A stretch of 64,000 nt of DNA from Flavivirga abyssicola (GTDB lineage Bacteria > Bacteroidota > Bacteroidia > Flavobacteriales > Flavobacteriaceae), in contig NZ_CP141266.1 in NCBI RefSeq assembly GCF_030540775.2, forward strand, positions 1,909,001 through 1,973,000, read 5' to 3'. Both the position numbers and the translations under genes were made by a program. Numbering within the stretch: position 1 is the first letter of the stretch; each line of letters begins with the position of its first letter. This document shows positions 21,570 to 38,368 of this stretch, in pieces. The notes under the pieces were generated by a model. The model was not told the DNA's origin. It saw only the letters and a list, made by a program, of their open reading frames with translations, and ran no database searches.

Positions 21570-24500
21570 TTAGTTAATTTTCACAGCCTGTAAACTATCA
21601 TTATTCTTTACAGCTATGATATATTTTTTGTTTTTAACAGCAATGGTTTCTATATCCTTTACATCTCCGGGAATAAACAATCCACTTTCAGAAGAAGGTA
21701 TAGCTTGAAATGAACCCGAATTATTTCCTTTTAAAAACAAACCATAACCGGCATCGTTACGTGGTGTTTCAACCTCAGACATGAATAGGTTTCCTGCAAT
21801 TAGGGCATCTAAGGCACCATCATTGTCATAATCATCAATAAGGATTTTATTAATACTCGACACTTGAGCTTCAACAGGTAGTTCATGTATTATAAATGTC
21901 CCGCCTTTATTTTCAAGATAAATACTGGCAAAGGATTTTACTTGATAATGCAGGGCAGATTCTAAGGATTTTTCTTCATAAACATCCACCAGAGTAGCTT
22001 CAGAAAAACTTTCGTAGTTTTTAAACTTCTCTTTAATATTTGGTATTTGTTGCGATGAGCATTCTCGTCCTCTTACGGGGTATTGCTTGCCTTCGTTATA
22101 GTAACTTAATACAATATCTTTTTTACTATCGTTATCAAAATCATTCACATAAATATCGAAAGTTTCATTTTCGGTGGCTTTATATTTATAGTTTAGTCCG
22201 TTATTTCCAACGATATAATCCATATCACCATCATTATCAAAATCCCCTTCATTAATACTCCACCACCAACCCGTAGTGTCTTTTGTGAGGCCAACTGCTT
22301 CAGATACTTCTTTAAAACCATGCTTTGTATTTTGAAACACACGGATGGGCATCCATTCTCCAACTATGATGATGTCTTGCCATGCATCATTATTAAAATC
22401 GGTGATAATAGCACTTGTAGCCATGCCTAGATTTTCAAAGGAACTAGCGAATTTTTTGGTAACATCTTCAAATTTTACAATGCCGCCCTCTGTTTTATTC
22501 TCCAATAAAAAGCTCTTTGCTACTGATGGATAGTTACCTGGAATTTGCCTTCCTAAAACCAATACATCCTGCTTACCATCTTTATTAAAATCAAGATTAT
22601 AGGCTTTAGAGCCACTTACTATCATTTCGGGTAAAGCATTTTTTGTTTTTGTTAGATGGCTGTTTCCATCATTTATATATAATCTGTCTTGGAGCATTTT
22701 AGATTTTGGTGAAAATTCATAACCACCACTTACCACGTACAGATCGTTGTCTCCATCATTGTCTGCATCAAAAATTAAAGCCCCAAGGTCTTCACTTAAT
22801 TTATCAGACTGGAATGCCTCTGAATTTTGAATTTCAAACCCGTTATCTGTTTGAAAAAACAAGCTTCCTGTTCTATTAAATGATCCGCCAATAAAATAAT
22901 CGTCTAAGCCATCCTGATTTAAATCACCAACTGCAAGGGCAGGGCCGAGTGTAGACATTTTATGAGGCAAAAGCACTTGATATTTAAAGTCGTCAAAATT
23001 ATTTTCGTCGTGTTTATATTCTGGGAAAACGGCTTTTACATGAGAAGAAAATAGTTTGTTTGAGTCGTTTAAAATAGGATCTGAATCACCTTTAGCGTCC
23101 GAGTATTTTAAAATAATCGTTTGATTGCTTGAAACGTTATTTAATTTTTGAATTTTTCCATCTGTCCAAACCACTTTTAATTCGTTTATAGTATTGGATG
23201 TGCCTAAGCCAAAATGTATTTCTGGCGCTACCGAAGATTGAAACCCACGAGTTAATGTAAGTTCCTGCATTTGTGTTTCGTTATTAGAAGTAACAAAAAC
23301 ACGATTCCCTAAACCAAATTTATTTTTTGAAGTACCTTCAAATTGTATGCTCAAATAATTATTGATTTCTGAGCTTTTATTTTCAAAAAGAGAAGCATAA
23401 TCATCAATATTGTTAGTGATGATTTCTAAATCACCATCATTATCTAAATCTGCATAAGCCACACCATTAGAAAACCCTTTAAACTCGATACCCCAATCTT
23501 TATTGGCTTGTTTAAATTTTAAGTCCCCTTTGTTTTTATAAATAAAGTTGTCGATTTTCTCAGAAGGAATTTTTAAACTCATTGCTAAGGTGCTATCGCT
23601 ATCAATAGAGAAATCGTCACTTAGATTATTGAAAAAGTCACGGTTATTTACCTCCCGTCTTGTACCATTTGAGATGAATAAATCTTTTAAGCCGTCATTG
23701 TCAAAATCTGCAAATAAAGGCCCCCAGCTCCAATCTGTAGAAGAAACGCCTGTTAATCTTGATATGTTGGAATAAAAAGGGTTGTTGTCTTCAAAAACAC
23801 CTGTGTTTAGCTGTAAACAATTTTGCATATATTGATAATGAAACCCAGCATTTACCACACCCCAAAACAAATCTGGATTCATCCCAGCCATATTTGCTTT
23901 TTTGCGTTTATTGGTTTTTGCATCCATATCTACCTGATAGATATCCAGGTTGCCATCATTATTAAAATCTGCAATGTCTACACCCATGCCATAAAAAGCT
24001 GTATGCGAAGTTGCTTGTTTTACGACCTCTCTAAAGGTGCCGTCTTGGTTATTTATATACATGTAATCTGGCGAGGCAAAATCGTTTGAAATATACAAAT
24101 CTGGCCATGTGTCATTATTTAAATCACCAACAGTCGCACTTAATGTTAAACCAAAACTTTTTACGCCTGCTTGATTGGTTACATCTGTAAAGGATGTACC
24201 ATCGTTCCTGTATAAATGATCAGTTTCTACATCATTAACCTGCGCCATTTTTTGCTGGTAAACATAAACAGAGGCATTAAATTTGGTTATGGGATAGTTG
24301 GCAACATATACATCAAGATCACCATCTTTGTCATAGTCAAAAAAAGTGGCTTGTACACTGTTTCCTTGATCTGCTAAACCATATTCTGATGCTTTTTCAG
24401 TAAAAGTGCCATCTTGATTATTAATGTATAGCTGATTTTCTTTAGGATTAAATTTGCCAGCTACAGAACAATAAATATCTAAGTAACCATCGGCATTAAT

Positions 24501-24878
24501 ATCTGCCATGGTAACACCTGTATACCATCTGTTATCTCCAGAAACACCTGCGAGATCTGTGATGTCTTCAAATTGAAGATTGCCTTTATTTAAATATAAT
24601 TTATTTGAAACCTGATTTCCTGTAAAGAAGATATCTTTTAGTCCATCGTTGTTTATGTCTCCTATAGCAACACCGCCACCCATGTACAAATAGGAGTATG
24701 TGAAATAATTAAGCGAATCGTTTTCTGTGAGTGTATTAGAAAAATCTATACCTGTTTTTGAAGCGTTAAGTGTTTCAAATATTTTACTATTTGAAATAGA
24801 CTCTTTTTCTTTTGAACAATTAAAAAAGAGTATCAAAAAAAACAAACCAGTCATTATTTTTAATACTCTAATTTTCAT
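21570..24878 (-). CDS. VCBS/FG-GAP repeat lipoprotein with ASPIC/UnbV domain
   Basis: A 1102-residue lipoprotein: signal MKIRVLKIMTGLFFLILFFN then the lipid-accepting Cys of FFNCSKE. About fourteen calcium-binding-type repeats follow, such as DINNDGLKDIFFTG, DYDKDGDLDVYVANY, DFDNDGLKDLFISNG and DFDNDGDMDYIVGNNG. These build one or two beta-propellers. Between them (about residues 510-580) is an ASPIC/UnbV-like segment with LTRGFQSSVAPEIHFGLG. It is the last gene of the glycerol/alpha-galactoside locus, 17 bp after the GlpD gene. Relatives are often linked to SusC/SusD and are thought to bind carbohydrate at the cell surface. Confidence 0.9.
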   Translation of the reverse strand: MKIRVLKIMTGLFFLILFFNCSKEKESISNSKIFETLNASKTGIDFSNTLTENDSLNYFTYSYLYMGGGVAIGDINNDGLKDIFFTGNQVSNKLYLNKGNLQFEDITDLAGVSGDNRWYTGVTMADINADGYLDIYCSVAGKFNPKENQLYINNQDGTFTEKASEYGLADQGNSVQATFFDYDKDGDLDVYVANYPITKFNASVYVYQQKMAQVNDVETDHLYRNDGTSFTDVTNQAGVKSFGLTLSATVGDLNNDTWPDLYISNDFASPDYMYINNQDGTFREVVKQATSHTAFYGMGVDIADFNNDGNLDIYQVDMDAKTNKRKKANMAGMNPDLFWGVVNAGFHYQYMQNCLQLNTGVFEDNNPFYSNISRLTGVSSTDWSWGPLFADFDNDGLKDLFISNGTRREVNNRDFFNNLSDDFSIDSDSTLAMSLKIPSEKIDNFIYKNKGDLKFKQANKDWGIEFKGFSNGVAYADLDNDGDLEIITNNIDDYASLFENKSSEINNYLSIQFEGTSKNKFGLGNRVFVTSNNETQMQELTLTRGFQSSVAPEIHFGLGTSNTINELKVVWTDGKIQKLNNVSSNQTIILKYSDAKGDSDPILNDSNKLFSSHVKAVFPEYKHDENNFDDFKYQVLLPHKMSTLGPALAVGDLNQDGLDDYFIGGSFNRTGSLFFQTDNGFEIQNSEAFQSDKLSEDLGALIFDADNDGDNDLYVVSGGYEFSPKSKMLQDRLYINDGNSHLTKTKNALPEMIVSGSKAYNLDFNKDGKQDVLVLGRQIPGNYPSVAKSFLLENKTEGGIVKFEDVTKKFASSFENLGMATSAIITDFNNDAWQDIIIVGEWMPIRVFQNTKHGFKEVSEAVGLTKDTTGWWWSINEGDFDNDGDMDYIVGNNGLNYKYKATENETFDIYVNDFDNDSKKDIVLSYYNEGKQYPVRGRECSSQQIPNIKEKFKNYESFSEATLVDVYEEKSLESALHYQVKSFASIYLENKGGTFIIHELPVEAQVSSINKILIDDYDNDGALDALIAGNLFMSEVETPRNDAGYGLFLKGNNSGSFQAIPSSESGLFIPGDVKDIETIAVKNKKYIIAVKNNDSLQAVKIN

Positions 24879-24895
24879 GCTATTAATCTTCTTTT

Positions 24896-26587
24896 TTATT
24901 TAAATTCTTCGGTATAGTAAGTTGTAGCGTCCTGTATTAGTAACTCCATATTGTTGCTCTCAGAATTAATTCTGGATTCATTCCAATTTAAGTACATAAT
25001 AAAATCTTTCAAAACAATATCCAAATATTTTTTAATGCTTGGAATATTGAAATATAAACGGCCAGTACGTCTAACAAAGAAATCTGTTAAACTATTGGTC
25101 ATTTCATAGTGAATGCCATACCAGGTTTCTGCCCTAATTAACCTTTCTAAAGCATCTTCATTCTCGAAATCTTTCATTTTATCGATTATAGTATCGGCCT
25201 GTTTTCCATAAGTAGTACACAGGTACCAAGCGTGATAGGGCTCTACAATTCCTAATTTAGATAATTGATTTTCTATATCTGTTTGATAAGTGTTTACCGC
25301 TTCTTTAGAATGAAGCGCAGGACTCACTAAAGGAATTGTTTCAGTTGATGATTTTTTAAATTTGGACTTTCGCTTTTTACTCATGGTTTTTAAAACGGCT
25401 TCGATAACACGTTGTGCCATTTTACGATAACCAGTAAGTTTTCCGCCTGCTATAGAAATAAGACCACTATCTGAAATAAAAAGTTCATCTTTTCTTGATA
25501 GTTCTGAAGGGTCTTTGTCTTCTTCGTGGATGAGAGGTCTTAATCCCGCCCAATTAGATTCTATATCATTAAGAGTTAAAACGATACTTGGAAACGTCTT
25601 GTTTATGGCATTTAGTAAATATTCAGCATCGCTTTTTGTAGCAACTACGCGTTCTAAATTACTTGAATAATTGGTGTCGGTTGTACCAACATAAGTAACC
25701 CGTCCTCTCGGAATTGCAAAAATCATTCTGCCATCCGGTACATCGAAATAAACGGGTTGATTTATTGGTAATTTTTCGGAAGGAATAACAATATGAACGC
25801 CTTTGGTAAGGTGTAAATATTTATGATTCATGGATGCGTCTTTTTTCCTCACAATATCTACCCAGGGACCAGCAGCAGACACATAATTTCGTGCTTTGAT
25901 GCTTAGTTTGTTTCCTGTGTTATGATCCATACAGTTTAGGTGTTCAATTTTGGAGTCTGCATCATAACTAAACGATTCCATTTCACAATAATTAACTATT
26001 GTGGCACCAAACTCGGCAGCCTTTTTTAGTATTTCGATGGTTAATCGGGCATCGTCTGTTCTATATTCAGCATAAAGTCCGCCTCCTAAAACTACAGATT
26101 CATTTAATAAAGGTTCTTTTGTTAGAGTTTCATTTTTATCTAACATTTTACGTCTATCATTACCAGATACATTTGCTAGAATATCATAAACCATGAGTCC
26201 AATAGAAGTCATCATTTTGCCATAGGTACCACCTTCAACTAGAGGCAGTAGCATTTTTTCTGGAATGACTAAATGTGGTGCTAATTTATGAACGATAGCA
26301 CGTTCTGAACCAGATTCTTTTACTAAGCCTATTTCTAATTGTTTTAAATATCTTAAACCACCATGAATCAATTTTGTGGATTTATTACTAGTCCCTGAGG
26401 CAAAGTCGTTTTTTTCTATAAGACACACTTTTAATCCTCTAGAAGCTGCATCTAAAGCAATACCTGCTCCTGTAACACCTCCACCTATAATAGCTAAATC
26501 AAACTTTTTACTGCTTAACTTTTCAAATTGTTTACTTCTGTTTAAAACTGAAAAACGCTTCTTTCCTTCTTCCTTATCTACTTTCAT
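24896..26587 (-). CDS. glpD: FAD-dependent glycerol-3-phosphate dehydrogenase
   Basis: A 563-residue GlpD. The FAD motif is AIIGGGVTGAGIALDAASRG, followed by the family's FASGTSNKSTKLIHGGLRYL. The C-terminal domain has RAETWYGIHYEMTNSLTDFF and the family RTGRLYFN motif. It oxidises sn-glycerol-3-phosphate to dihydroxyacetone phosphate and passes electrons to quinone at the inner membrane. The gene is 1 base downstream of the glycerol kinase gene. Together the two convert glycerol to DHAP. Confidence 0.95.
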   Translation of the reverse strand: MKVDKEEGKKRFSVLNRSKQFEKLSSKKFDLAIIGGGVTGAGIALDAASRGLKVCLIEKNDFASGTSNKSTKLIHGGLRYLKQLEIGLVKESGSERAIVHKLAPHLVIPEKMLLPLVEGGTYGKMMTSIGLMVYDILANVSGNDRRKMLDKNETLTKEPLLNESVVLGGGLYAEYRTDDARLTIEILKKAAEFGATIVNYCEMESFSYDADSKIEHLNCMDHNTGNKLSIKARNYVSAAGPWVDIVRKKDASMNHKYLHLTKGVHIVIPSEKLPINQPVYFDVPDGRMIFAIPRGRVTYVGTTDTNYSSNLERVVATKSDAEYLLNAINKTFPSIVLTLNDIESNWAGLRPLIHEEDKDPSELSRKDELFISDSGLISIAGGKLTGYRKMAQRVIEAVLKTMSKKRKSKFKKSSTETIPLVSPALHSKEAVNTYQTDIENQLSKLGIVEPYHAWYLCTTYGKQADTIIDKMKDFENEDALERLIRAETWYGIHYEMTNSLTDFFVRRTGRLYFNIPSIKKYLDIVLKDFIMYLNWNESRINSESNNMELLIQDATTYYTEEFK

Positions 26588-26588
26588 T

Positions 26589-28070
26589 CTAATGTCTTTT
26601 AGTTCTTTTTACGGCTTTTTTCCAGCCTTTATATTTTTGTTTTCTTGTTTTATTATCCATTTTTGGACTAAAAACAGTATCAACTTTTCGTATAGTTTCC
26701 ACATGGTTTTTGTTCCAAATATTTGCTTTTATCCCAGCTAATAATGCTGCTCCAAATGCTGTTACTTCTATCATTTTTGGTCTATCTACATCTACATTTA
26801 AAAGGTCTGACTGAAATTGCATGAGATAATTATTAGCACTAGCACCACCATCAACCTTTAGGGTTACTATTTTTTCATTACTATCCTTCACCATAGCATT
26901 TATAACATCTTTAGTTTGATATGCTAAAGCTTCAACCGTTGCTTTTATAAGCTCATTTTTTCCTGTATCTAATGTCATGCCGTAAACACTTCCTTTGGCT
27001 TTGGCATCCCAGTGTGGGGCTCCTAAACCAGCAAATGCCGGCACAACATATACCTTTTTTAAAGGTGGTATGCTATTACAAATAGCCTCAGTATCACTTG
27101 CCTTTTCAATAATTTGCATCCTATCTCGCAACCATTGAATGGATGCGCCTCCAGCAAAAATGCTGCCTTCTAAGGCGTAATTTACAGATTCAGAGTCGAG
27201 GCTGCAGGTTAGTGTTGTTAAAAGCCCTTTTTTAGACCTTACTTGTTTTTCTCCTGTATTTAGTAATATGAAACAACCTGTTCCGTAAGTACTCTTTGCA
27301 ATGCCAGAGTGAAACCCACCTTGACCAAATAATGATGCTTGCTGATCTCCAGCAACACCATAAATAGGGATGTCTATACCTTTATAATCAATCGAGCCAA
27401 AATCTGAAGAAGAGTTTTGAACTTTAGGAAGCATGGATTCAGGGATCTTTAAAACCTCTAATAGCTTTTTATCCCAGTTTAATGTCTTTATATTGTAAAT
27501 CATGGTTCTGGATGCATTGGTATGATCCGTAACATGCTTTTTACCCTTGGTGAATTTATAGATTAACCAACTGTCAATAGTGCCAAATAATAATTTACCT
27601 TGCTCTGCTTTTGCTTGTGCACCTTCCACATGTTCTAAAATCCATTTTAATTTGGTTCCAGAAAAATAAGAATCTATAACAAGTCCTGTGTTTTTTTGAA
27701 TGTATTTTGAAAGCCCTCTTTGCTTAAGTTCCTTACAAATCTCAGAGGTTCTTTTGTCTAACCAAACAATGGCATTATGGATAGGTTCTCCTGTTTCTTT
27801 ATCCCAAACTACGGTTGTTTCTCTTTGGTTTGTAATACCTACAGCTGCAATGTCTTCGATTTTTATGCCAGATTCTGAAAGTGCTTGGTTAAAAGTTTCT
27901 AATTGATCGTTATAAATTTCTAAGGGATCATGCTCTACCCAACCAGATTGCGGGTAATGTTGTGTTAGTTCTTTTTGAGCAATTGCTTTTATTTGTCCTT
28001 TGTCATCAAAGACAATGGTTCTTGTACTTGTAGTTCCTTGATCGAATGCTATGACATATTTCTTATTCAT
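26589..28070 (-). CDS. glpK: glycerol kinase
   Basis: A 493-residue FGGY-family kinase with FDQGTTSTRTIVFD at the N-terminus and the glycerol-kinase signature GVAGDQQASLFGQGGF and YGTGCFILLNTG. The substrate region IQKNTGLVIDSYFSGTKLKW is typical of GlpK. Reaction: ATP plus glycerol to glycerol-3-phosphate, in the cytoplasm. It lies 18 bp after the symporter gene. No GlpF facilitator is in the operon, so the symporter or the breakdown of a glycerol-containing sugar would supply substrate. Confidence 0.95.
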   Translation of the reverse strand: MNKKYVIAFDQGTTSTRTIVFDDKGQIKAIAQKELTQHYPQSGWVEHDPLEIYNDQLETFNQALSESGIKIEDIAAVGITNQRETTVVWDKETGEPIHNAIVWLDKRTSEICKELKQRGLSKYIQKNTGLVIDSYFSGTKLKWILEHVEGAQAKAEQGKLLFGTIDSWLIYKFTKGKKHVTDHTNASRTMIYNIKTLNWDKKLLEVLKIPESMLPKVQNSSSDFGSIDYKGIDIPIYGVAGDQQASLFGQGGFHSGIAKSTYGTGCFILLNTGEKQVRSKKGLLTTLTCSLDSESVNYALEGSIFAGGASIQWLRDRMQIIEKASDTEAICNSIPPLKKVYVVPAFAGLGAPHWDAKAKGSVYGMTLDTGKNELIKATVEALAYQTKDVINAMVKDSNEKIVTLKVDGGASANNYLMQFQSDLLNVDVDRPKMIEVTAFGAALLAGIKANIWNKNHVETIRKVDTVFSPKMDNKTRKQKYKGWKKAVKRTKRH

Positions 28071-28088
28071 TATAGGGCCATATTTTAA

Positions 28089-29744
28089 TTAAAAAATAAA
28101 GTAAGTACTTAAAACAAGTATCGTAATTATTATTCCTACCACCTTAGCATATTTCCATGGTTCAATATCTATTTGTTCAGTAATTGTAGGTGTGTAGATA
28201 TTTTTATTAGGGTATAATTTACCCATTAATAACATAAAAGCGACATTAATAACAAATAGAATTCCCATAATATGTAAAAAATGAGGATATGCCTTCGCTT
28301 TTATAATACCCAATTCTTTTGCATTTGTAATACCATTAGCTGCTGCTTCTGCCAATGCCGTTTCAACAAAATAGGGACTTAATACAAACTGGCTTACTAA
28401 ATACATTAACACGCCAACTGTTAAAACAATTTTAGCTCCTAAAGCGGGTACATTTTTGGTGATTATTCCAACTGTTACAACGGCTAGTATTGGAACACTT
28501 AAACTTCCTAAAGATTCTTGTATATATGAAAACAAACCATCAGGTGCATTGGCGATGAATGGAGATATTGTCATAGATATTATGGCTAGAATCAGTCCGA
28601 ATATTTTCCCAGCTTTCACCATTTCTATTTCAGAGGCATTTGTATTGAAATATTGGCGATAGAGATCAACACCAAATAAAGTTGAACTGCTATTTAATAG
28701 ACTATTAAATGAACTTAAAACAGCTCCAAATAAAACAGCTGCAAAGAACCCTAAAAATGCTCCAGGCAATACTTTACGCACTAATGCCGGATACGCCTGA
28801 TCTGCATTTTCCAAGTTTCCTTCAAATAGATGCCAGGCAATGATACCTGGTAATACCACAATAATTGGAATTAAGAACTTTACAAACCCTGCAAGTATCA
28901 TCCCTTTTTGGCCTTCTTTTAAACTTTTTGCTCCGAATACACGTTGTAAAATAGATTGATTCGTTCCCCAGTAGTACATTTGAGCTATCATCATTCCCGT
29001 AAAAATAGTACTGAATGGAATAAATGAATCGATGTCTCCTTTAGCATTAAACTTATCTGGATTGGCCTCCCATAATGTGCTTATTCCATTTGACACACTA
29101 CCATCTCCTATAAGCATTAAACCAAAAACAGGAATTAAAAGCCCTCCGATTAACAAGCCTATAGCGTTAACTAAATCGGAAACAGCTACGGCTTTTAGTC
29201 CTCCAAAAATGGCATATATAGAGCCAATAATTCCTATGGACCAAACACATAGCCAAATGACAGCGGATTGAGATATCCCTAAAGTCTCTGGTAAATCAAA
29301 CATGGTACTGAATACCAGAGAGCCTGAGTATAGTATAGTTGGTAATAATACAATGCCAAAAGCTACCAAAAAGAGTATAGATAATATCGATTTGGTTTGC
29401 GCATCAAATCGTTCTTGAATAAATTGTGGAATTGTAGTAATGCCCGATCGCATATATTTTGGTAACAGATAAATAGCTGTTACAATCATAGAAATTGCAG
29501 CTAATGTTTCCCAAGCCATCACTAGCACCCCTTGAGCAAAAGATTGTCCGTTTAGTCCAACAATTTGTTCTGCTGAAAGATTTGTTAGTAATAAAGAGCC
29601 TGCTATGGTAATAGCTCCTAAACTTCTTCCTCCAAGATAATAACCGTCTGCAGACCTCTCGTCTGTTTTGCGTGTTGCATACCATGCAATAAAGGCTACC
29701 AATAATGTAAAACCAATAAATGAAATAATTGATAGCGTTCCCAT
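28089..29744 (-). CDS. sodium:solute symporter (SSS family)
   Basis: A 551-residue membrane protein with about fourteen transmembrane helices and SSS features: ATRKTDERSADGYYLGGRSL at the start and LLLTNLSAEQIVGLNGQSFA, the sodium-site region of SGLT-like sugar transporters, then YYWGTNQSILQRVFGA. These fit the SGLT branch that carries sugars and sugar-like solutes. It lies 7 bp after the GH36-like gene and before glycerol kinase, so it most likely brings the periplasmic glycoside, or its galactose or glycerol part, into the cytoplasm. Substrate is not known. Confidence 0.92.
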   Translation of the reverse strand: MGTLSIISFIGFTLLVAFIAWYATRKTDERSADGYYLGGRSLGAITIAGSLLLTNLSAEQIVGLNGQSFAQGVLVMAWETLAAISMIVTAIYLLPKYMRSGITTIPQFIQERFDAQTKSILSILFLVAFGIVLLPTILYSGSLVFSTMFDLPETLGISQSAVIWLCVWSIGIIGSIYAIFGGLKAVAVSDLVNAIGLLIGGLLIPVFGLMLIGDGSVSNGISTLWEANPDKFNAKGDIDSFIPFSTIFTGMMIAQMYYWGTNQSILQRVFGAKSLKEGQKGMILAGFVKFLIPIIVVLPGIIAWHLFEGNLENADQAYPALVRKVLPGAFLGFFAAVLFGAVLSSFNSLLNSSSTLFGVDLYRQYFNTNASEIEMVKAGKIFGLILAIISMTISPFIANAPDGLFSYIQESLGSLSVPILAVVTVGIITKNVPALGAKIVLTVGVLMYLVSQFVLSPYFVETALAEAAANGITNAKELGIIKAKAYPHFLHIMGILFVINVAFMLLMGKLYPNKNIYTPTITEQIDIEPWKYAKVVGIIITILVLSTYFIF

Positions 29745-29751
29745 AGTTTAA

Positions 29752-31527
29752 TTATTTTTTTAAAGTTAGTTTAATCATACCACATGCAGGCACTTTAATT
29801 TCAGTCACTCCTTGTTTTAGTACTATTGAATTCTGATTTACGACATCTCCTTTGCAATTAATGGTCTCATAGTTATAGTCTTTTGTTGAAGAAGCCATTT
29901 TAATAACTATGCTTTCTGACAGTTTACCATTTATAATATGAATATTATTAAAGCTTTCTTTCAACTCAAGAAGATAATCATCAAATACTCCAAAAATAGC
30001 TGTTCCGTTTTTTGAAACTTGTTTTAATGGATAATTTGCTAGCGGATTATAAGGTATAAAATTACCGGTTGTAATGGTGTCCTTGTTTTCATTCCAATAA
30101 TTCGTGTAGAATTTAACCATTTTTAAATGATCTTCTGGGATATCTTTTAGTTTTACTGATATTTGAGGGACTCCAAATAAGGTATTCACCATTTGTAGTG
30201 CGGCAACTTCTAATGATTCTTCATTGTGCCAGGTAATCATATCTGAATGTACAGCAGTATTGCCTGCTAACATTCGTATATCAGCAATTCTGACTCTGTT
30301 CATTGTGGCATCTCCTGGACAATCGAAAGCACGAAACATGTTGCCGTATTTTCTCATGGCCGGACCTGTATATTTTTGTCTAAACTCTATAAAAATATTT
30401 GGATTTATATTTCTAAGAGTAACCATGACATCTGTTAGTAGTCTATCAACGGCTTCATTAATAGAACCATAATCCATTCCATTGCTTTTTTCTTTAATGG
30501 TATCAGGATATAGTCTAAAATCATCAATAAAATCTAGTTTAAACCCATCAAGGTCCCAGTTGATTAAGGCAGATTTATAGATGTTTATTAAATAACGTCT
30601 CACTTCTGGGTAACGGGGATCAAATACAGGAGCCCAACGGTGGTTTTCTGTTAAGAATTTGCCTTTAAATTGTTTATAGGCTTCTGATTTTTTTCCACAA
30701 AAAGGAACAGAGTACCAAAAGCCAACTTTCATGCCTATAGCATGGACATTATCAACAAAAGCTTTTGTTTTTGAGAGACGATCTGGATTCCAATCTCCAG
30801 TATAATCATACCCTCTGTTGCTATCATTTGTTTGCCAGCCATCATCAATTATTATAGACTTGTAGCCTAAGTTATAGGCCATTTTAAACTCTTCTAATAA
30901 TACATCTTCTTCTAGGTTTTGATGGAATTGATACCATGTAGAATATAATGGTGTTAAAGCAATATCTGGTACAGGGGCAGGTTTAAGATTTTCAAATGTT
31001 TCCCACCATTTTGAAACATCTTTTAAAGCATCAGAAAAATGCTTTTCACCAAAGTCTAATCTAATCTGAGCATTGAAATGATCTATTTTAGATTGTTGTT
31101 CAGAAAAGAACGTGATATAACAGTAAAAATAATCATCTTCTTCTCTTATTTCGGTGTTAAGTTCTAGTTTGTTAATAGCATTAGAGCATGCAAAGGTTAA
31201 CCTATTACTATCATCATGACCAAATAAACCAATAACAGGCGCATCTATAGATATTCTTGATTCCATAGGTTGCATTTCCCAATCTGCATGTATGCGTTTT
31301 GCAAAATCTGTTGTAGGTTTCCAGACGCCTTTCACATTGTGTGCTGGGATTTTCCATTTTAATGTTATCGGTCTTGGAGTTTCTGGTGTTGAAGCTGTAA
31401 TATTGAAATTAAATATAGAAAGATCGTTATTGTTAGAAATAACGTTTAATTCCGTATTGAAAGTGTCTGAAGCTCCAATAACTTGGATGTCTTTTACAGA
31501 AGGGATATAGTTTTCTTTTTTTGCCAT
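29752..31527 (-). CDS. GH36-like alpha-galactosidase, cytoplasmic
   Basis: A 591-residue clan-D glycoside hydrolase. An N-terminal beta domain (about 1-185) precedes the catalytic barrel: IIIDDGWQ at 226-231, the nucleophile Asp332 in GFKLDFIDD, and an acid/base candidate among Asp402/Asp406 in FDCPGDATMNRVRIAD. A C-terminal beta domain follows. There is no signal peptide, so it acts in the cytoplasm on an imported substrate. GH36 mostly hydrolyses terminal alpha-galactose, with a few alpha-N-acetylgalactosaminidases and transferases. Next to glycerol kinase, an alpha-galactosyl-glycerol is a likely substrate; this is inference. Confidence 0.88.
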   Translation of the reverse strand: MAKKENYIPSVKDIQVIGASDTFNTELNVISNNNDLSIFNFNITASTPETPRPITLKWKIPAHNVKGVWKPTTDFAKRIHADWEMQPMESRISIDAPVIGLFGHDDSNRLTFACSNAINKLELNTEIREEDDYFYCYITFFSEQQSKIDHFNAQIRLDFGEKHFSDALKDVSKWWETFENLKPAPVPDIALTPLYSTWYQFHQNLEEDVLLEEFKMAYNLGYKSIIIDDGWQTNDSNRGYDYTGDWNPDRLSKTKAFVDNVHAIGMKVGFWYSVPFCGKKSEAYKQFKGKFLTENHRWAPVFDPRYPEVRRYLINIYKSALINWDLDGFKLDFIDDFRLYPDTIKEKSNGMDYGSINEAVDRLLTDVMVTLRNINPNIFIEFRQKYTGPAMRKYGNMFRAFDCPGDATMNRVRIADIRMLAGNTAVHSDMITWHNEESLEVAALQMVNTLFGVPQISVKLKDIPEDHLKMVKFYTNYWNENKDTITTGNFIPYNPLANYPLKQVSKNGTAIFGVFDDYLLELKESFNNIHIINGKLSESIVIKMASSTKDYNYETINCKGDVVNQNSIVLKQGVTEIKVPACGMIKLTLKK

Positions 31528-31605
31528 TCTAATGTTGTATTAATTGTGAGAAGCAATTAATTAAAGTGCTGTTTTAACTTTTAAGATAGCTGGTGGGAGA
31601 TTGAG

Positions 31606-31638
31606 AAAAGCCGAGTTAATTAAAGGAACTCGACTTTT
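31606..31638 (-). terminator. hairpin after the SusD gene
   Basis: AAAAGCCGAGTT and AACTCGACTTTT flank a 9-nt spacer. As minus-strand RNA the stem is unbroken with one G-U pair and ends in UUUU. It may partly separate the susCD transcript from the GH36-GlpD genes, setting higher transporter than enzyme levels. Confidence 0.7.
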
Positions 31639-31681
31639 GTTCAATCTACAAACTAAACTAAAAATCAATTTTTTTCAATGA

Positions 31682-33286
31682 TTAATTATAACCTGGATTT
31701 TGATCAAGATTCGGATTAGAATCTCTTTCAGAATTTGGTATCCAAATCAACTCGTGTTTGTTACTTTGAAAAACACCGCCACTTAATGATTTTGGGTGTG
31801 CGCCATGTAAAGATGTTGCCCCCAGATAATCATCAGCTAAATCCCAACGAACTAAGTCAAAGAAACGGTGGCCTTCGCCTGCAAGTTCCATAGCGCGTTC
31901 TTCAATAATAGCCTGACGCATATCGGCTTGGTTAATACCTGGATTTGTATCTGCTATTAATGTTAAATTTGCTCTATCTCTAACCATATCTATATATTGA
32001 ATAGCTTGAGATGTCATATTATCTTCGTTTAATGCTTCGGCTAACATTAATAAAACATCAGCATAGCGAATAATTCTCCAGTTGTTTCCAACATTGGTGC
32101 CTAAGAAATCCACATCCCCTCTGGCTCCTAAGTCCATCCCAGAATATTTTTTCCCGTATATAGCTTCTAATCCTGCATCTGCTGCTACTGTAAGGTCACC
32201 AGCAACAACATTACCATCTTCATCTAAAGTATCTGCTAAATCGATATTGAAACTTGCGCCTCCATATCCTGTAGCTCCTGGATAATCATAAAGTAAAGTT
32301 TCGTTTCTACGTACAGTATCTCCATTAGCTTCAAATAAATCTTTTAACCAAGGATTGATAAGGTGTCCTTTATCTGGAGACTTTGTTGGCGTTGCATAGT
32401 CTATATGGTAATTCCCCATGCTTCCTGTTCCAGGAATATCAGATCCCCATACAAAGGTCTGTTGACCTAAAAATTGTAATTCAAATACAGACTCGCTATT
32501 ATTTTCATTGGTTGTAGAAAAGTTTTCTCCAAAATTGGCAGCTGGTAATAAGCTGTATTTTCCAACTAAACTTCCCAATGTCGTTGCAGCTGGACCAAAT
32601 TGTTCCATGTATAAATAGCTTTTTCCTTTTAAAGCTGTGGCAGCTCCGCTTGTAGGTCTTCCTAAATCTTCACCTGTCCAACTCTCTGGAAGCATGGTTT
32701 CAGCCATTTCTAAATCTGAAATTATTTGAGCCCAAATACTTTCTGGAGTCGCTTGTTCTACTAGTAAATTATCTAAATCTGGTAATTCTGTAATTAAAGG
32801 CACGTTACCATAAAGATTTACTAAATACCAATAATCAAAGGCACGTAAGAAATATGCCTGTCCAACTAAATTTTCTCTAGTGGTTTGGTCTGGAATACCT
32901 TCTTCAGTAACATTAATAATAACATTATTACAACGTGCAATAGACTTATAAAGTTCTTGCCAAGGTTCAGTAGCCCAACGGTCTCCAGGGTTTCCTAAAA
33001 AAGTTGACATGGCTGTATTAGAACCAAAAGGAAATACGTTAAATTCATCTGATCGTAACATCGCTCCTGTGTGTATAATTCTTCCCCAGAAAAAGGTTCC
33101 TGTAATGGGGTGAAAAGCTCCGTTTATAGCAGACTCCACTTGTTCTACAGAAGTACCAAAATTTGCTGTAGATGTTGCATTGTTATTTTGTTGATCTAAT
33201 ATATTATCAGAACAAGCAAACAATACTAGTAATAACGAACATGTTATTATGCCTAATAAGGACTTTATTTTTATCATTTTTTTCAT
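31682..33286 (-). CDS. SusD/RagB-family surface glycan-binding lipoprotein
   Basis: A 534-residue lipoprotein with signal ending LLVLFACSDN (lipid Cys) and SusD-family features: RDEFNVFPFG in the early part, TPR-like helices around FLRAFDYWYLVNLYGNVPLI, a C-terminal ERAMELAGEGHRFFDLVRWD and LIWIPNSERDSNPNLDQNPG. The extracellular SusD lid binds the oligosaccharide and closes on SusC. The gene is 17 bp after the SusC gene. The ligand is probably a small glycoside given the locus. Confidence 0.95.
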   Translation of the reverse strand: MKKMIKIKSLLGIITCSLLLVLFACSDNILDQQNNNATSTANFGTSVEQVESAINGAFHPITGTFFWGRIIHTGAMLRSDEFNVFPFGSNTAMSTFLGNPGDRWATEPWQELYKSIARCNNVIINVTEEGIPDQTTRENLVGQAYFLRAFDYWYLVNLYGNVPLITELPDLDNLLVEQATPESIWAQIISDLEMAETMLPESWTGEDLGRPTSGAATALKGKSYLYMEQFGPAATTLGSLVGKYSLLPAANFGENFSTTNENNSESVFELQFLGQQTFVWGSDIPGTGSMGNYHIDYATPTKSPDKGHLINPWLKDLFEANGDTVRRNETLLYDYPGATGYGGASFNIDLADTLDEDGNVVAGDLTVAADAGLEAIYGKKYSGMDLGARGDVDFLGTNVGNNWRIIRYADVLLMLAEALNEDNMTSQAIQYIDMVRDRANLTLIADTNPGINQADMRQAIIEERAMELAGEGHRFFDLVRWDLADDYLGATSLHGAHPKSLSGGVFQSNKHELIWIPNSERDSNPNLDQNPGYN

Positions 33287-33303
33287 AATATATTTTTTAT
33301 GGA

Positions 33304-36300
33304 TTAAAACTTAGCCTGTAAGCCTAACATGAATGTTCTGGCATTAGGATACGCTCTTTGGTCTAGACCCCTACCTAGTAAAGGGTTTACTCCAGATCTA
33401 ACTCCAGGAACACCTGAATTTAAATTGGCTCTACCGCCATTTGTTGACGCTATATCTGGGTCGTAACCAGTATAATCTGTTATTACAAAAACATTTTGAA
33501 TGTTTAATGATAGCCTGACACTTTTTATCCAATCAACGCCAAGTGCCTTTTCTCCGAAATTGTATCCAACTTCTAAGTTCTTTAACCTAAAGTAAGATCC
33601 GTTTTCTACAAAGAAGGAAGAAGGTTCTTTATTGCCAGCAGGATCATCTACTGTTGCTCTCGGAATATTGGTATCAGTATTTGAAGGCGTCCATGAATTA
33701 AGGACATCTGTGAGTTTACCACCATCTTGCCATAAGATATTGTAATATCTACTTAGGTTATATATTTCGTTTCCAGAAACCCCATTAAAGTTTAATGAAA
33801 AGTCAAACTTTTTGTATTCCCCAGAAAAATTTAAACCATAAGTAAAATCAGGTGTTGGATTTCCAATAATTGTTTGGTCGTCTGAAGTAATTCCAGCAAC
33901 ACCATCGGTATCAACTCTAATAAAATCACCAGTAGCAGGGTCTACTTTATCTTCAACAACCCAGCCATAAAACGCACCTACAGGGCCATTAGCCTCAGTT
34001 CTATTTACAACACGTAAATCTTCATCTATTCCAGGACCTAAAATAGTTGCGGGAATATCTTTGGCTTCATTTTTAAGATTGAAAGAAAAATTAGTGCCTA
34101 CACTATAAGTAAAATCACCTTCGGATTTTTTGTAAGTAACATCAAACTCAAAACCATTATTAACAAGTGTTCCAGCGTTTCTGGTAACAGGTAAGCTAAC
34201 ACCAGCCGTAGATGGGATACTGATAGGTACTAAAGCATCTTCAACATCTTTTGAATAATAGTCTGCCGAAAAAGTAATGGCACTATTCAATAAGGACATA
34301 TCGACTCCAATATCGAAAGTTTTTGTGGTTTCCCATACTAGGTTTTCGTCTGCAAGTGTTGTTTGTGCTAAACCGTTTGCTGTACCACCCCCAAAACTTG
34401 TGTTTGATTGGTTGGCAAGAAATACGGCTTGTGTAGGATAAAATACATCTGGGTATGATCCTAACTCTCCATAAGATACTCTTAACTTGAAAAAGTTAAT
34501 GGTTTCAGATTCCCAGAAATCTTCATTACTAATATTCCATGCAGCAGAAACAGAAGGAAAATAACCTTCTTGATTATCTTTTGCAAATCTAGACGAAGCA
34601 TCTCTTCTTAAAGTTCCAGAGAAAATATATCTGTCATTGTAGTTATAATTTAAACGACCAAAATAAGATATTAAACCAGCTTCATTATCTTGTCCTAAAA
34701 GTATATTTTGATCGCTTGAAGGTAATGCCCCAACAACTTGAATACTATTGGCAGGTGTACCTTGTCCATAGATTCCACTGCTTTTTTGTGTTTCAATAAA
34801 TCGGGTATAACCTAGAACGGCAGATATTTTATGTACATCATTGAATGTTTTGTTGTATGATAAAGTAGGTTCGAATAACAAGTTAATATCTTCTTGTTTA
34901 AACTCTGTTAAATCATTTAAATCATTCACATTTCTTACCGGATCTACTAAACTCATGAAATAGGTTGGCGTAAACTGAAAACGTTTTTGAGAGGTGTAAT
35001 CAACACCTAAATTAACAGAGGCCGTTAAAGCTTCATTTATTTCGTAGTCTAGTTTTAAACTAGAGAATAATGTTCTAGTGGTTTCTAAATTATTTTCCAG
35101 AGTAGCTAAAGCAAATTGGTTAACACCACCTGGACCCTGAACATCTGTAGAAGGTGCTTCAAAACCACCATCATTGCTAGCATTTCTTAGTGCTACAGTA
35201 GGAGCAGTAGTACCATCAAAACCGTACCAGTTGTTTTCTTGTAATTTTGCTTCGGTAATACCTAATGATTGAGATAATTTAAATTTACCAAATTCATGAT
35301 TACTATTAAATCTAGCATTTAATCTTTTAAATCCAGATCCTATCAAAATACCATCTTGATTATAATAGTTTATAGATGAAAAATAAGATGATTTCTCACC
35401 ACCACCAGAAAGTGATAGTCCGTAATCCTCGATAATTCCACTTTGAAGGTTTTCATCTTGCCAATCTGTATCTACACCGTTAAATGAGACAGTTGTTGAA
35501 CTACCATCATTAGCAAATCGCTGATTTAAATAATCGGTGTATTGCTGACCATTAATAAAATCTAATTTTTTGCTGGGCGTATCAAAACCAATTCTAGTAT
35601 TAAAGGTAACTTCTAAACCTTTATTTTTTCTACCATGGTTTGTTTTAATTAAAACAACGCCATTGGCTGCTCTAGAACCATAGATTGCAGCAGCGGCGGC
35701 ATCTTTTAATACAGAGATGTTATCTATATCTATAGGGTTTATATAGTTCATATTATCTACAAATAATCCATCCACTATATAAAGCGGTGATGCATTACTT
35801 AAGGAATTGATACCTCTAATAAATACATTTCCTGTTCCACCTGGTTGACCTCCAGGGTTCTCAACTTGTATTCCAGTAAGCCTTCCTTGCAGTGCTGCGG
35901 TTGGATTACCGGCTACTGTATTTACTAAGTCACCTCCTTTAACTGACCCTACAGAACCAGTTAATTCGCGTTTGTTTGTTGTTCCATAACCTACAATAAC
36001 GACCTCTTCTAATGCAGCAGCATCTTCGATTAAAGCTACGTTAATTGTAGTTTCGTTTCCGATAGTAACTTCTTGATTTTTATAGCCAACATAGCTAAAA
36101 ACAAGAATGTCTCCTGAGCTAACATCACTAATGGTAAAGTTTCCATCAAAATCTGTTGAGGTACCATTTGCTGTGTTTTTCACAATAATGTTAACTCCGG
36201 GAAGCGGAATTTTTCCGTCTGTAACTGTTCCTGAAACAGTTGATGTTTGAGCATTAGCAACCATTCCCGAGAGGGAAAAGACTAAGGCAAATAATAGTCT

Positions 36301-36318
36301 TAGTACATTTTTTTTCAT
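33304..36318 (-). CDS. SusC/RagA-family TonB-dependent outer-membrane transporter
   Basis: A 1004-residue TonB-linked barrel with a signal peptide (LLFALVFSLSGMVANAQ), an N-terminal carboxypeptidase-like beta domain (about 27-105, SGTVTDGKIPLPGVNIIVKN), the plug with EEVVIVGYGTTNKRELTGSV, FIRGINSLSNASPLYIVDGL, and the barrel ending in ARTFMLGLQAKF with C-terminal Phe. It imports the ligand held by SusD into the periplasm using the proton-motive force through TonB. It is the first gene of the locus, with operator-like repeats before it. Confidence 0.96.
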   Translation of the reverse strand: MKKNVLRLLFALVFSLSGMVANAQTSTVSGTVTDGKIPLPGVNIIVKNTANGTSTDFDGNFTISDVSSGDILVFSYVGYKNQEVTIGNETTINVALIEDAAALEEVVIVGYGTTNKRELTGSVGSVKGGDLVNTVAGNPTAALQGRLTGIQVENPGGQPGGTGNVFIRGINSLSNASPLYIVDGLFVDNMNYINPIDIDNISVLKDAAAAAIYGSRAANGVVLIKTNHGRKNKGLEVTFNTRIGFDTPSKKLDFINGQQYTDYLNQRFANDGSSTTVSFNGVDTDWQDENLQSGIIEDYGLSLSGGGEKSSYFSSINYYNQDGILIGSGFKRLNARFNSNHEFGKFKLSQSLGITEAKLQENNWYGFDGTTAPTVALRNASNDGGFEAPSTDVQGPGGVNQFALATLENNLETTRTLFSSLKLDYEINEALTASVNLGVDYTSQKRFQFTPTYFMSLVDPVRNVNDLNDLTEFKQEDINLLFEPTLSYNKTFNDVHKISAVLGYTRFIETQKSSGIYGQGTPANSIQVVGALPSSDQNILLGQDNEAGLISYFGRLNYNYNDRYIFSGTLRRDASSRFAKDNQEGYFPSVSAAWNISNEDFWESETINFFKLRVSYGELGSYPDVFYPTQAVFLANQSNTSFGGGTANGLAQTTLADENLVWETTKTFDIGVDMSLLNSAITFSADYYSKDVEDALVPISIPSTAGVSLPVTRNAGTLVNNGFEFDVTYKKSEGDFTYSVGTNFSFNLKNEAKDIPATILGPGIDEDLRVVNRTEANGPVGAFYGWVVEDKVDPATGDFIRVDTDGVAGITSDDQTIIGNPTPDFTYGLNFSGEYKKFDFSLNFNGVSGNEIYNLSRYYNILWQDGGKLTDVLNSWTPSNTDTNIPRATVDDPAGNKEPSSFFVENGSYFRLKNLEVGYNFGEKALGVDWIKSVRLSLNIQNVFVITDYTGYDPDIASTNGGRANLNSGVPGVRSGVNPLLGRGLDQRAYPNARTFMLGLQAKF

Positions 36319-36353
36319 AAGTCAATATTTAAGTTAGTTTTAATTGTGATAGT

Positions 36354-36408
36354 GTATGCTACTTTGGTTATTTAAAAGTGTGCTACAGTATGCTACTTTG
36401 CAAATATA
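36354..36408 (-). promoter_or_regulatory. susC promoter with two operator-like repeats
   Basis: GTATGCTACTTTG occurs twice in direct orientation (36354-36366 and 36388-36400), 34 bp centre to centre, with a third half-match GTGTGCTAC at 36378-36386. A perfect minus-strand -7 element TATATTTG lies at 36401-36408 right next to the distal copy; the -33 element is not evident. The repeats would cover the start site, so a repressor bound there, likely the adjacent GntR-type protein, could block transcription. Confidence 0.6.
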
Positions 36409-36492
36409 TAAAAAAAATTGATAGATTTTAAGAATATATAAAAAAATACATCTAAAAACTAGATAGTTAGGAATAAAACCCTTTAAATATTG

Positions 36493-37509
36493 CTATAATG
36501 AATTCCTGTGAATTAGCTCGGAAGGTACTATTTTACGAGTATGTTCCTTGAATTTTAAATAATTAGCAGCTTCTAAAGCCATTTTTTTAAAATCTGTAGA
36601 GATTGTAGTAATGCCTCCAAAAATAATTTCCTTAATAGCATTATCATTATGAGCCAAAACACCTATATCTTTTCCAATAGTATAGGCTTTTAACTTGCTA
36701 TCTTTAAGAACTTCCCATAAAAAGTTATCACTAATAAAAAAGTATAAAGTGTTTTTAGCAACACTCTCTTTTTTATATTCTTTTTCTACTTTAGCATCGA
36801 TATTATATTCATCAACAAATTTATTGAAAGCATTTAAGACGCCTACAGGGTTATCAGAATCGTCTTTAAAAAATAAGATAAACTTTTTATATTTTTTTAT
36901 TTCAGGAAGTAGCTTTTTTAATTGATCATAGGTTGAATCTTCAAACTCTTGTGTGATATATGAGTAATCTCTTGGCAAAGGGATATGTCTATCTATAACT
37001 AATAATTTTTCACTAGGAATATTTTTTAATAACAGTCCCACTTCCGGGGTTTGTATAGGTGCGATAACATACATACCATACCTCCCTGAGATTCTTGAGA
37101 GAATATCTTTAAAAACATCAATATTATTGTGGTGAAAAAAAACATTTATAATATATTTTTTACCTAATTCTTTTCTAAAGGTGTTATAAAAATCTTCCTG
37201 GAACGAATGAAACGCGAAAAGTAAAAGTGCTACCCTTAGTTTTGTATTGGTATTTACATCAGCAATATAATAGCCTTTAAAGTTTTTAGATTCTACAATG
37301 CCTCTTCCTTTTAAGTCTTCGTAAGCTTTAACAATGGTTTTTCTGGCAAAACCGATTTCAGCAACCATTTTATTAATTGATGGTAAGCGATCTCCTTTTT
37401 TTAGTTCTTTTGATTCAATTTTACTAATTATTGCATTTACTAGCTGCTCATGCTTAGTAAGTGGTTTAGTATTTTTCAAATCATTTATTTTTTCAAAAAG
37501 GAATTTCAT
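36493..37509 (-). CDS. GntR-family regulator with sugar-binding-like effector domain
   Basis: A 338-residue regulator. The winged helix (about 18-85) shows LVNAIISKIESKELKKGDRL, PSINKMVAEIGFARKTIVKA and YEDLKGRGIVESKNFKGYYI. The rest (about 90-335) is a LacI/periplasmic-binding-protein-like effector domain, with LRVALLLFAFHSFQEDFYNT and later IGKDIGVLAHNDNAIKEI. This GntR-LacI chimaera is frequent beside Bacteroidota sugar loci. It ends 175 bp before the SusC start, and the operator-like repeats lie in that gap. The ligand is presumably the substrate or a product of the locus. Confidence 0.9.
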   Translation of the reverse strand: MKFLFEKINDLKNTKPLTKHEQLVNAIISKIESKELKKGDRLPSINKMVAEIGFARKTIVKAYEDLKGRGIVESKNFKGYYIADVNTNTKLRVALLLFAFHSFQEDFYNTFRKELGKKYIINVFFHHNNIDVFKDILSRISGRYGMYVIAPIQTPEVGLLLKNIPSEKLLVIDRHIPLPRDYSYITQEFEDSTYDQLKKLLPEIKKYKKFILFFKDDSDNPVGVLNAFNKFVDEYNIDAKVEKEYKKESVAKNTLYFFISDNFLWEVLKDSKLKAYTIGKDIGVLAHNDNAIKEIIFGGITTISTDFKKMALEAANYLKFKEHTRKIVPSELIHRNSL

Positions 37510-37531
37510 AAATCATTAGTTAGAATTTGAA

Positions 37532-38368
37532 TTATAAAAAAGATAAGATTGCTTGTATAACTTTTTGTAAATGTATTGGTAAATTATCTTTTTCCCAAGG
37601 ATGTGAAGCCCCAAAAACATGATTTGCGTCTTTTATAATTTCTAGTTTGCTATTTGGGTTCCACTTGTGAAGTTTATGTGCTTCTTCAATAAAAATACTG
37701 GTATCTGCATGGCCATGAATAATGAGGTGTGGTACTTTTAAGTTAGACACAGCTCTTTTGATGGTTAACCGTGATTCGTTTTTTACGAAGTCTTCATAGA
37801 ATTGATAATAATGAGGCATTTGTTGTTTAGTTCTACCATTAAGAACATATTTTACACCGTCTTTTTTCCAGGATTCCAAATCGCCAATTGTTGCCGTTCT
37901 TTTACCAAAATCACAAACACTTGCTAAACTTATCACGTTTTTAACACGGGAGTCTTCTTCTGCTTTTATAGAAACAATACCGCCGCCACGACTGTGTCCT
38001 ATTAAACTAATGTTAGCGGTATTTCCTTTATCTTTTAGGGTATCATTTTTAAAAACCCAATCCATTACAGTTTCTAGATCATCCAACTCTTTTGTGTAAT
38101 TATTATTACCGAAAGCTTCTAAGTCGGGAAAATCTATAGGCTGTTTGACGGTGCCTCCATTATGCGAAAAATTAAACTTTATAAAGCAAAATCCAGCATT
38201 TGCGAATGTATTTGCCATTAAATTCCATGCGCCCCAATCTTTAAAACCTTTGTAGCCATGACAAAATATAATAATAGGCTTATTTGTGCCATTTACAGTA
38301 TACGTTACATCTATTAAAATGGGCTTTCCGTGCTTCCCTTCAATAACAATATTTTTTTTATCAATCAT
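37532..38368 (-). CDS. alpha/beta hydrolase
   Basis: A 278-residue alpha/beta-hydrolase with the nucleophile elbow GHSRGGG, oxyanion region FCHGYKGFKDWG, acid in IIHGHADTSI and histidine in KDANHVFGASHP. There is no signal peptide, so it is cytoplasmic. Members of this type are esterases or dienelactone-hydrolase-like enzymes. It abuts the AddB-like gene (1-bp gap) and lies just upstream of the GntR-type regulator, and could belong to either unit. The substrate is unknown. Confidence 0.88.
   Translation of the reverse strand: MIDKKNIVIEGKHGKPILIDVTYTVNGTNKPIIIFCHGYKGFKDWGAWNLMANTFANAGFCFIKFNFSHNGGTVKQPIDFPDLEAFGNNNYTKELDDLETVMDWVFKNDTLKDKGNTANISLIGHSRGGGIVSIKAEEDSRVKNVISLASVCDFGKRTATIGDLESWKKDGVKYVLNGRTKQQMPHYYQFYEDFVKNESRLTIKRAVSNLKVPHLIIHGHADTSIFIEEAHKLHKWNPNSKLEIIKDANHVFGASHPWEKDNLPIHLQKVIQAILSFL

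Follow-up and report, generated by a model that had tools for sequence, protein, structure and literature searches.

The window analysed here, a 64,000-nucleotide stretch (C1:1909001-1973000) of the single-contig, 4.68 Mb genome of Flavivirga abyssicola, carries at positions 21570 to 37509 a SusCD-type nutrient locus that probably serves the use of an alpha-galactosyl-glycerol; the leading candidates are floridoside (2-O-alpha-D-galactosyl-glycerol) and isofloridoside. Its eight genes encode a regulator, an outer-membrane importer pair, a predicted alpha-galactosidase of the glycoside hydrolase family 36 (GH36) type, a symporter, two glycerol enzymes and an FG-GAP/UnbV_ASPIC protein. The set is conserved in other genera, and a conserved operator at the locus recurs at glpK/glpD promoters of related genomes. 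A first-pass annotation of the window had proposed a substrate that yields galactose and glycerol on cleavage; the proposal gained from Gal genes at sister loci, GlpK of two lineages inside the locus and the operator at glpK/glpD elsewhere, which argue strongly for such a substrate.

Gene order and conservation

Nine open reading frames from 21570 to 38368 were scanned with Pfam and NCBIfam. The eight genes of the locus are given in transcription order; the gaps between them are 174, 17, 154, 7, 18, 1 and 17 bp.

36493..37509, minus strand: GntR-type regulator, 338 residues (PF00392)
33304..36318, minus strand: SusC-type TonB-dependent outer-membrane importer, 1004 residues (TIGR04056, 787 bits, cut-off 368)
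31682..33286, minus strand: SusD-type lipoprotein, 534 residues (PF07980, PF14322)
29752..31527, minus strand: predicted GH36-like alpha-galactosidase, 591 residues, no signal peptide (PF02065; AlphaFold model and PDB matches)
28089..29744, minus strand: sodium:solute symporter (SSS), vSGLT-related, 551 residues (PRK10484, 725 bits, cut-off 401)
26589..28070, minus strand: glycerol kinase GlpK, 493 residues (TIGR01311, 700 bits, equivalog cut-off of 590 passed)
24896..26587, minus strand: GlpD-like, flavin adenine dinucleotide-dependent glycerol-3-phosphate dehydrogenase, 563 residues (PF01266, DAO; PF16901, DAO_C)
21570..24878, minus strand: FG-GAP/UnbV_ASPIC protein, 1102 residues (PF13517, PF07593)

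Adjoining SusC and SusD genes, a degradative enzyme and a regulator make this a SusCD-type utilization locus. The SusC/SusD pair, GH36-like enzyme, SGLT-like symporter, GlpK, GlpD and GntR of the first-pass annotation all lie where it had placed them, on one strand and 1-174 bp apart; the FG-GAP/UnbV_ASPIC gene, inside the same span, was missing from its list.

Related loci were drawn from a species-genome collection with the GH36 alignment as query. The best 80 of 167 confirmed relatives were used, all labelled Flavobacteriaceae. Genes were counted in the fetched flanks by tblastn thresholds, giving SSS 76, SusC 66, SusD 66, FG-GAP 63, GntR 56, GlpD 40, GlpK 39 and O-acetyltransferase 18; the SSS, SusC, SusD and FG-GAP counts take in distant paralogs. 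The survey of marine flavobacteria that had been suggested for the gene set recovered the complete order in L061, L062, L064 and L066-L069, other genera included. The locus is not a chance arrangement, because the identical gene order recurs in other genera. The nearest titled relative was Flavivirga rizhaonensis (94% identity over the GH36-like protein). In a sample of 299 genomes of the family, any match to the GH36-like enzyme was found in 54, and the close GH36 clade (identity at least 55%) in 17, the window's genome counted in.

Operator and regulon

36401..36408, minus strand: TATATTTG, candidate Bacteroidetes -7 promoter element (sequence; aligned in relatives)
36374..36400, minus strand: predicted operator site 1, directly after the -7-like element (34.8 bits)
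36340..36366, minus strand: predicted operator site 2 (29.2 bits)

The spacer between the GntR and SusC genes carries a conserved site, GTAGCATA-(C/G)-(A/T)-GTA(G/T)CA(C/T)A, straight after the TATATTTG element, with two copies in the window. TAnnTTTG was taken to be the Bacteroidetes -7 consensus; a consensus promoter scan stood at the shuffled mean (71 vs 77.5). A regular expression for the operator matched 47 of 52 GntR-SusC spacers, the window's among them. Scores were computed with a 27-column position weight matrix trained on the GH36 loci themselves. It exceeded 15 bits in 68/80 loci, a count that holds partly by construction because the matrix was built from those loci; the best score in 1.67 Mb of reversed sequence was 13.3.

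A genome-wide search is free of this circularity. The 17 close-clade genomes held 22 exact matches to the operator pattern, 20 at GH36 loci and two directly upstream of glpK-glpD. These two, again immediately behind a TATATTTG or TATCTTTG element, belong to the canonical glpK-glpD operons of G236 and G001 (both Zobellia). Of ten one-mismatch sites, two were at GH36 loci and two directly upstream of glpD (G086, G211). Thus four of the ten out-of-locus sites lie at glp promoters (p ~7e-14 by position alone, the two Zobellia included; position-based p values here assume random placement and ignore shared descent). The pattern read backwards gave four matches in total, and a weaker site (16.6 bits) was seen at glpK of G018. 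Glycerol would be part of the substrate, because the operator recurs at glpK/glpD promoters where the glycerol genes lie outside the locus; this is the strongest single argument for it. The GntR protein is the presumed operator binder, and its ligand is likewise a prediction.

Two further sites were recorded. In Zobellia, a 33-bit match at G236:C1:4892097 (L203:6093) lies upstream of a TetR-family regulator, a possible further regulon member. At L055:1-11594 a signal-bearing homolog of the enzyme (46%) stands beside a relative of the locus GntR with the identical operator type (33.7 bits); because of this pairing, the regulator type seems to serve a variant system too.

Glycerol genes

Glycerol genes were present in 40/80 loci. 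In 22 of these 40, from Kordia, Tenacibaculum, Polaribacter, Aquimarina, Dokdonia and others, GlpK and GlpD form a single protein of 1054-1091 residues; fusions were located at L040:5181-8348, L052:6011-9196 and in the 22/80 loci (L061-L140). The fusion of L065 passed the GlpK cut-off (696 bits, 590), and its second half matches glycerol-3-phosphate dehydrogenase models. The top NCBIfam matches of the window's own dehydrogenase were glycerol-3-phosphate oxidase/dehydrogenase models, all under cut-off (476 bits, cut-off 840; 323, cut-off 360), with one match at E 1e-60 in its genome. We call the 24896-26587 protein GlpD-like; its position and the GlpK fusions suggest that it works like GlpD.

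A midpoint-rooted GlpK tree of 50 rows parted the main locus lineage from the canonical lineage with 100/100 support. GlpK of L089, L092, L099 and L104 fell on the canonical side, a second kinase lineage within the locus. The window's unfused GlpK nests among the fused ones, which suggests that its GlpK/GlpD pair may descend from a fused ancestor, at a point of the tree where, by the tool's warning, long branches meet. On the GH36 tree, the label 'has glycerol genes' needed seven changes, at least five of them forced by starred branches (quick method).

Each of the 17 close-clade genomes has one GlpK over cut-off. In seven (G000, G019, G072, G138, G036, G017 and G177) this sole GlpK is the locus copy (p ~3e-12, position alone); the window's GlpK is the sole one over cut-off in its genome. 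Three major intrinsic protein (MIP) queries detected no channel gene in the 80 loci; they did recover GlpF next to canonical GlpK in four genomes. The seven genomes with the locus GlpK alone yielded no GlpF-type channel. Their MIP genes are of NPARS/NPIRS type or fragments; in G072 both MIP matches are interrupted or partial. An NPARD-type channel, NPARD being taken as the marker of glycerol facilitators, was present in eight of the other ten genomes. The pattern suits glycerol made inside the cell, because no GlpF-type channel was found where the sole GlpK is the locus copy.

Galactose genes

GalK, GalT or GalE was found in 21/80 loci (8, 5 and 14 loci, respectively), and 13/80 had glycerol and galactose genes together. 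Labels were confirmed on examples: GalE reached 415 bits with TIGR01179 on L125 (cut-off 262), GalK 317 bits (227) and GalT 475 bits (102). In 14 loci from Aquimarina and Dokdonia, GalE shares the symporter's strand and is downstream of it. GalK or GalK-GalT comes shortly after the enzyme or symporter gene in L053, L051, L047 (the same DNA as L094), L101, L126 and L133, and L105 has GlpD followed by GalK. In 6/17 close-clade genomes the sole over-cut-off GalK is no more than 12 kb from the enzyme gene (p ~3e-10, position alone).

A phylum-wide search for the enzyme (395 genomes, E 1e-100) gave seven genomes, and four new stretches were fetched (L235-L238). L235 and L238 lie outside the family. 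In L235 the enzyme (48%) adjoins an SSS gene, and GalT, a short GalE-like gene (under cut-off) and GalK run divergently from it. In L238 (36% enzyme) GalK and GalT come next, and the fetched stretch of L237 (36% enzyme) has neither. L236 and L081 are one and the same DNA. Galactose would be the sugar in several lineages, because GalK, GalT or GalE adjoins the enzyme at sister loci and beside distant homologs.

The window's genome has a GntR-GalM-GalK-GalT operon at C1:4386504-4390607 (L192), more than 2 Mb from the locus. The window does not hold the gal operon, because the sole over-cut-off GalK lies at that distance; the earlier remark that galactose-use genes are outside the window thus holds, GalE not having been searched genome-wide. 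The regulator of this operon (L192:7504-8496) is 38% identical to the locus GntR and carries a Peripla_BP_3 domain.

The GH36-like enzyme

PF02065 was matched at 27.5 bits over residues 196-292 (cut-off 27). Searches of the PDB with phmmer and a 23-sequence profile returned mostly GH36-type alpha-galactosidases, also GH27- and GH31-type ones. An AlphaFold model (17 sequences) had a mean predicted local distance difference test score of 79.9, with a weak stretch at residues 73-94. Foldseek ranks 1-26 were alpha-galactosidase or galactosaminidase entries (TMq 0.53-0.65), and GH31 followed from rank 27. The best match was 9awt (E 6.8e-26), with SpAga 6phw at 1.3e-23. PDB entries without a title were presumed to belong to GH36.

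GH36 and clan GH-D carry the nucleophile Asp in a KxD motif, plus an acid/base Asp. In the profile alignment a KLDF stretch of the enzyme pairs with KWDM of 3mi6. W198, H202, D228, D229, W231, D245, W246, K330, D332, E381, R383, R399, D402, H427 and D429 were identical in 86/86 sequences (81 close, 5 distant). Candidate catalytic roles were assigned by presumed analogy to GH36, and the invariant Asp-Asp-Gly-Trp motif was taken as typical of alpha-galactosidases. Fold and conserved residues fit a predicted alpha-galactosidase.

No signal-like hydrophobic stretch was found within the first 60 residues of the window's protein. The best 12-residue Kyte-Doolittle mean over this region was at most 1.54 in the 81 close sequences and 2.29-3.33 in the five distant ones. 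The enzyme is probably cytoplasmic, because none of the close sequences has a strongly hydrophobic N-terminus. The first-pass description of a signal-less, GH36-like alpha-galactosidase is borne out by the narrow Pfam pass, the fold match and this N-terminus.

Two paralogs (~41% identical) in the same genome have signal-like N-termini and similar neighbours: L035:7905-11207 (near C1:546345) and L036:7889-11105 (near C1:2542378). The one in L036 scores 109 bits with PF22422 (mannosylglycerate hydrolase MGH1-like) and 71 bits with Trehalase. A second heteroside system in this genome is conceivable, because mannosylglycerate (digeneaside) is another red-algal heteroside.

Proposed route

SusC/SusD, perhaps aided by the FG-GAP/UnbV protein, would pass the heteroside through the outer membrane; the SSS symporter, whose closest solved structure is vSGLT 2xq2 (E 5.6e-61), would then move it intact into the cytoplasm. 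There the GH36-like enzyme would hydrolyse it to galactose and glycerol. The glycerol would be converted by GlpK and the GlpD-like enzyme to dihydroxyacetone phosphate (DHAP), and Leloir enzymes, with the distant GalM-GalK-GalT operon, would use the galactose. GntR would control the operon via two GTAGCATA-type operators just past the -7-like element. We infer the enzyme activity and the transport steps from sequence. On balance it is probable that this is a dedicated, family-wide floridoside system, in which a GntR regulon links import of the intact galactosyl-glycerol and its cleavage in the cytoplasm with breakdown of both products, whether in cis or in trans, and a natural bifunctional GlpK-GlpD fusion channels glycerol to DHAP.

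Floridoside is the presumed natural substrate. GH86 (PF18206, Porphyrn_cat_1), which we take to be a red-algal cell-wall marker, was over cut-off in 5/17 genomes with the locus and 12/282 without (Fisher p 0.0013, kinship uncorrected), and at E 0.001 in 5/17 and 14/282 (p 0.0023). This enrichment is weak ecological support for a red-algal link. The carrier of L094 is named Poritiphilus flavus, and the genus name presumably points to corals. Floridoside is reported in coral holobionts and their algal symbionts in the accessible part of PMC6918757. Algal hosts were also sought via strain names (PMC10233909, PMC12313589); the single case, strain 4-528 (L112) from Gelidium, was not counted.

Several findings weigh against the assignment. 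Neither glycerol nor galactose genes were found in the fetched flanks of 32/80 loci. Six of the ten out-of-locus operator matches lie at other places (L202, L203, L206, L207, L208 and one in L201), and the glpK and glpD stretches of G026, G102, G120, G050 and G215, half of the ten close-clade genomes without a cis glpK, show no operator. A shared regulon with the window genome's own gal operon was considered and rejected, L192 having no operator site above 9 bits. G026 and G102 have no NPARD channel though their GlpK lies outside the locus. The enzyme is just 11-15% identical to its top PDB matches and scarcely clears the Pfam cut-off, and GH86 (PF18206) had no match in the window's genome. 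Finally, the letters do not separate floridoside from isofloridoside.

Alternative substrates

Galactolipid head groups, that is, galactosyl-glycerols from monogalactosyldiacylglycerol (MGDG), digalactosyldiacylglycerol (DGDG) or lyso-galactolipids in place of a free algal osmolyte, would likewise yield galactose and glycerol, and 4/80 loci have a GH2 beta-galactosidase gene beside GntR (L062, L064, L066, L069; Pfam on L064). MGDG is a beta-galactoside; DGDG has alpha-galactose outermost, and using it would call for a beta-galactosidase and a lipase as well. The beta-enzyme could act on it only after the cytoplasmic alpha-enzyme, yet the four GH2 proteins have a hydrophobic, signal-like N-terminal stretch (by eye) and are encoded on the opposite strand. 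Among the conserved genes no lipase was noticed. This source is unlikely, because MGDG is beta-linked and DGDG needs a beta-galactosidase and a lipase, both missing from the window operon. Floridoside and a galactolipid head group had both been offered as examples of the substrate; floridoside or isofloridoside is the best candidate, and the head groups fit less well.

That the enzyme takes ordinary alpha-galactosides (melibiose, raffinose, galactomannan fragments), with the glycerol genes as operon passengers, is distinctly unlikely. Such substrates are what GH36 is mainly known for, glycerol genes are missing from 40/80 loci, and GH36 polysaccharide utilization loci (PULs), which may be other genes than the present ones, carry the label 'galactomannan' in PMC12313589. 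Set against this are GlpK of two lineages in the locus, the fusion in 22 loci and the operator at glpK/glpD in four genomes.

Another glycosyl-glycerol, such as cyanobacterial alpha-glucosyl-glycerol, would need GlpK and GlpD equally, and the enzyme is far from characterised GH36 members. We consider it very improbable: the invariant Asp-Asp-Gly-Trp points to alpha-galactosidases, GalK or GalT adjoins the enzyme in several lineages, other families included, and known glucosylglycerol catabolism runs on a GH13_18 phosphorylase, according to PMC11787520. Co-regulation without a chemical link, in which galactosides and free glycerol are met together on algae and one regulator serves both, would explain the operator common to two gene sets and leaves room for passive glycerol entry, but it has a very small chance: the 80 loci gave no MIP channel, and the seven genomes with locus-only GlpK no channel of GlpF type.

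Other features of the locus

31606..31638, minus strand: hairpin between susD and the GH36-like gene, A/T-rich at its base; may be an attenuator or a terminator (RNA fold)

The fold of 31600-31645 reached -14.7 kcal/mol (z -5.8), and 0/200 shuffles were as good; the hairpin is missing from the output of a consensus terminator scan. The FG-GAP/UnbV protein has a lipoprotein-like N-terminus (by eye) and is a predicted accessory member of the locus. A PAP2-superfamily protein (PF01569) is often alongside it, for example at L043:7892-9214. In 18/80 loci a maltose/galactoside O-acetyltransferase-like gene (PF12464, PF00132; for example L043:11457-12017) lies near the GH36-like gene and symporter, recalling LacA of the lac operon. 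Upstream of the locus are an alpha/beta hydrolase and a 919-residue protein with a PD-(D/E)XK nuclease domain, treated as neighbours. Just downstream of the distant gal operon (L192:11758-14493), a TIR/SEFIR-domain protein follows a 521-residue protein without a Pfam match; they may be a defence pair.

Relation to known systems

Bacteroidota SusCD loci, such as the GH36 galactomannan/raffinose PULs, likewise join a SusC/SusD pair, glycoside hydrolase, transporter and regulator. The window operon differs in having no secreted enzyme, an apparently cytoplasmic hydrolase, a glycerol-to-DHAP branch and a predicted small-heteroside substrate. With the GH36 alpha-galactosidases SpAga (6phw) and AgaA (4fnr) and the Flavonifractor galactosaminidase (9awt) the enzyme shares the fold and the KxD region; the low structural-alignment identity, the restricted PF02065 match and a length of 591 residues, against ~650-760 for most, set it apart. 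The classical glpFK-glpD regulon has the GlpK and GlpD reactions in common, whereas the locus has no glycerol channel gene and places kinase and dehydrogenase, often fused, behind an alpha-galactosidase.

Marinobacter also breaks down a glycosyl-glycerol compatible solute, but, in the accessible portions of PMC10873239 and PMC11787520, glucosyl-glycerol is the solute and breakdown is phosphorolytic, by the GH13_18 phosphorylase family. Red-algal floridoside breakdown, as given in the available part of PMC8703398, uses the same enzyme types (alpha-galactosidase, GalT, GalE, glycerol kinase and glycerol-3-phosphate dehydrogenase); it belongs to the metabolism of the alga and is no bacterial uptake operon. 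PMC8509150 names floridoside and isofloridoside as red-algal alpha-galactosyl-glycerols and describes a GH36 enzyme that joins galactose and glycerol into isofloridoside.

The first-pass annotation knew of no described locus with this content. In agreement, no bacterial locus for floridoside or galactosyl-glycerol use turned up in the top-ranked full-text literature matches, subscription papers lying outside the search. A literature search for GlpK-GlpD fusions gave nothing relevant, and the accessible parts of the Zobellia papers PMC9296495 and PMC5613140 held nothing bearing on the locus under GH36, floridoside, glycerol or galactosidase.

A SusCD nutrient locus is a known kind. New in this one are its predicted substrate, a probably cytoplasmic hydrolase combined with a glycerol branch, the fusion of kinase and dehydrogenase, and a regulon that extends in trans. 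If the assignment is true, some 'GH36, galactomannan' labels may need correction, an enzyme, a transporter and a regulator are named as test targets, and GntR with its operator would supply parts for a floridoside biosensor. Floridoside is the main soluble sugar and photosynthate of red seaweeds, and the locus would give a genetic marker with which to follow how this major osmolyte of seaweeds and reefs is turned over.

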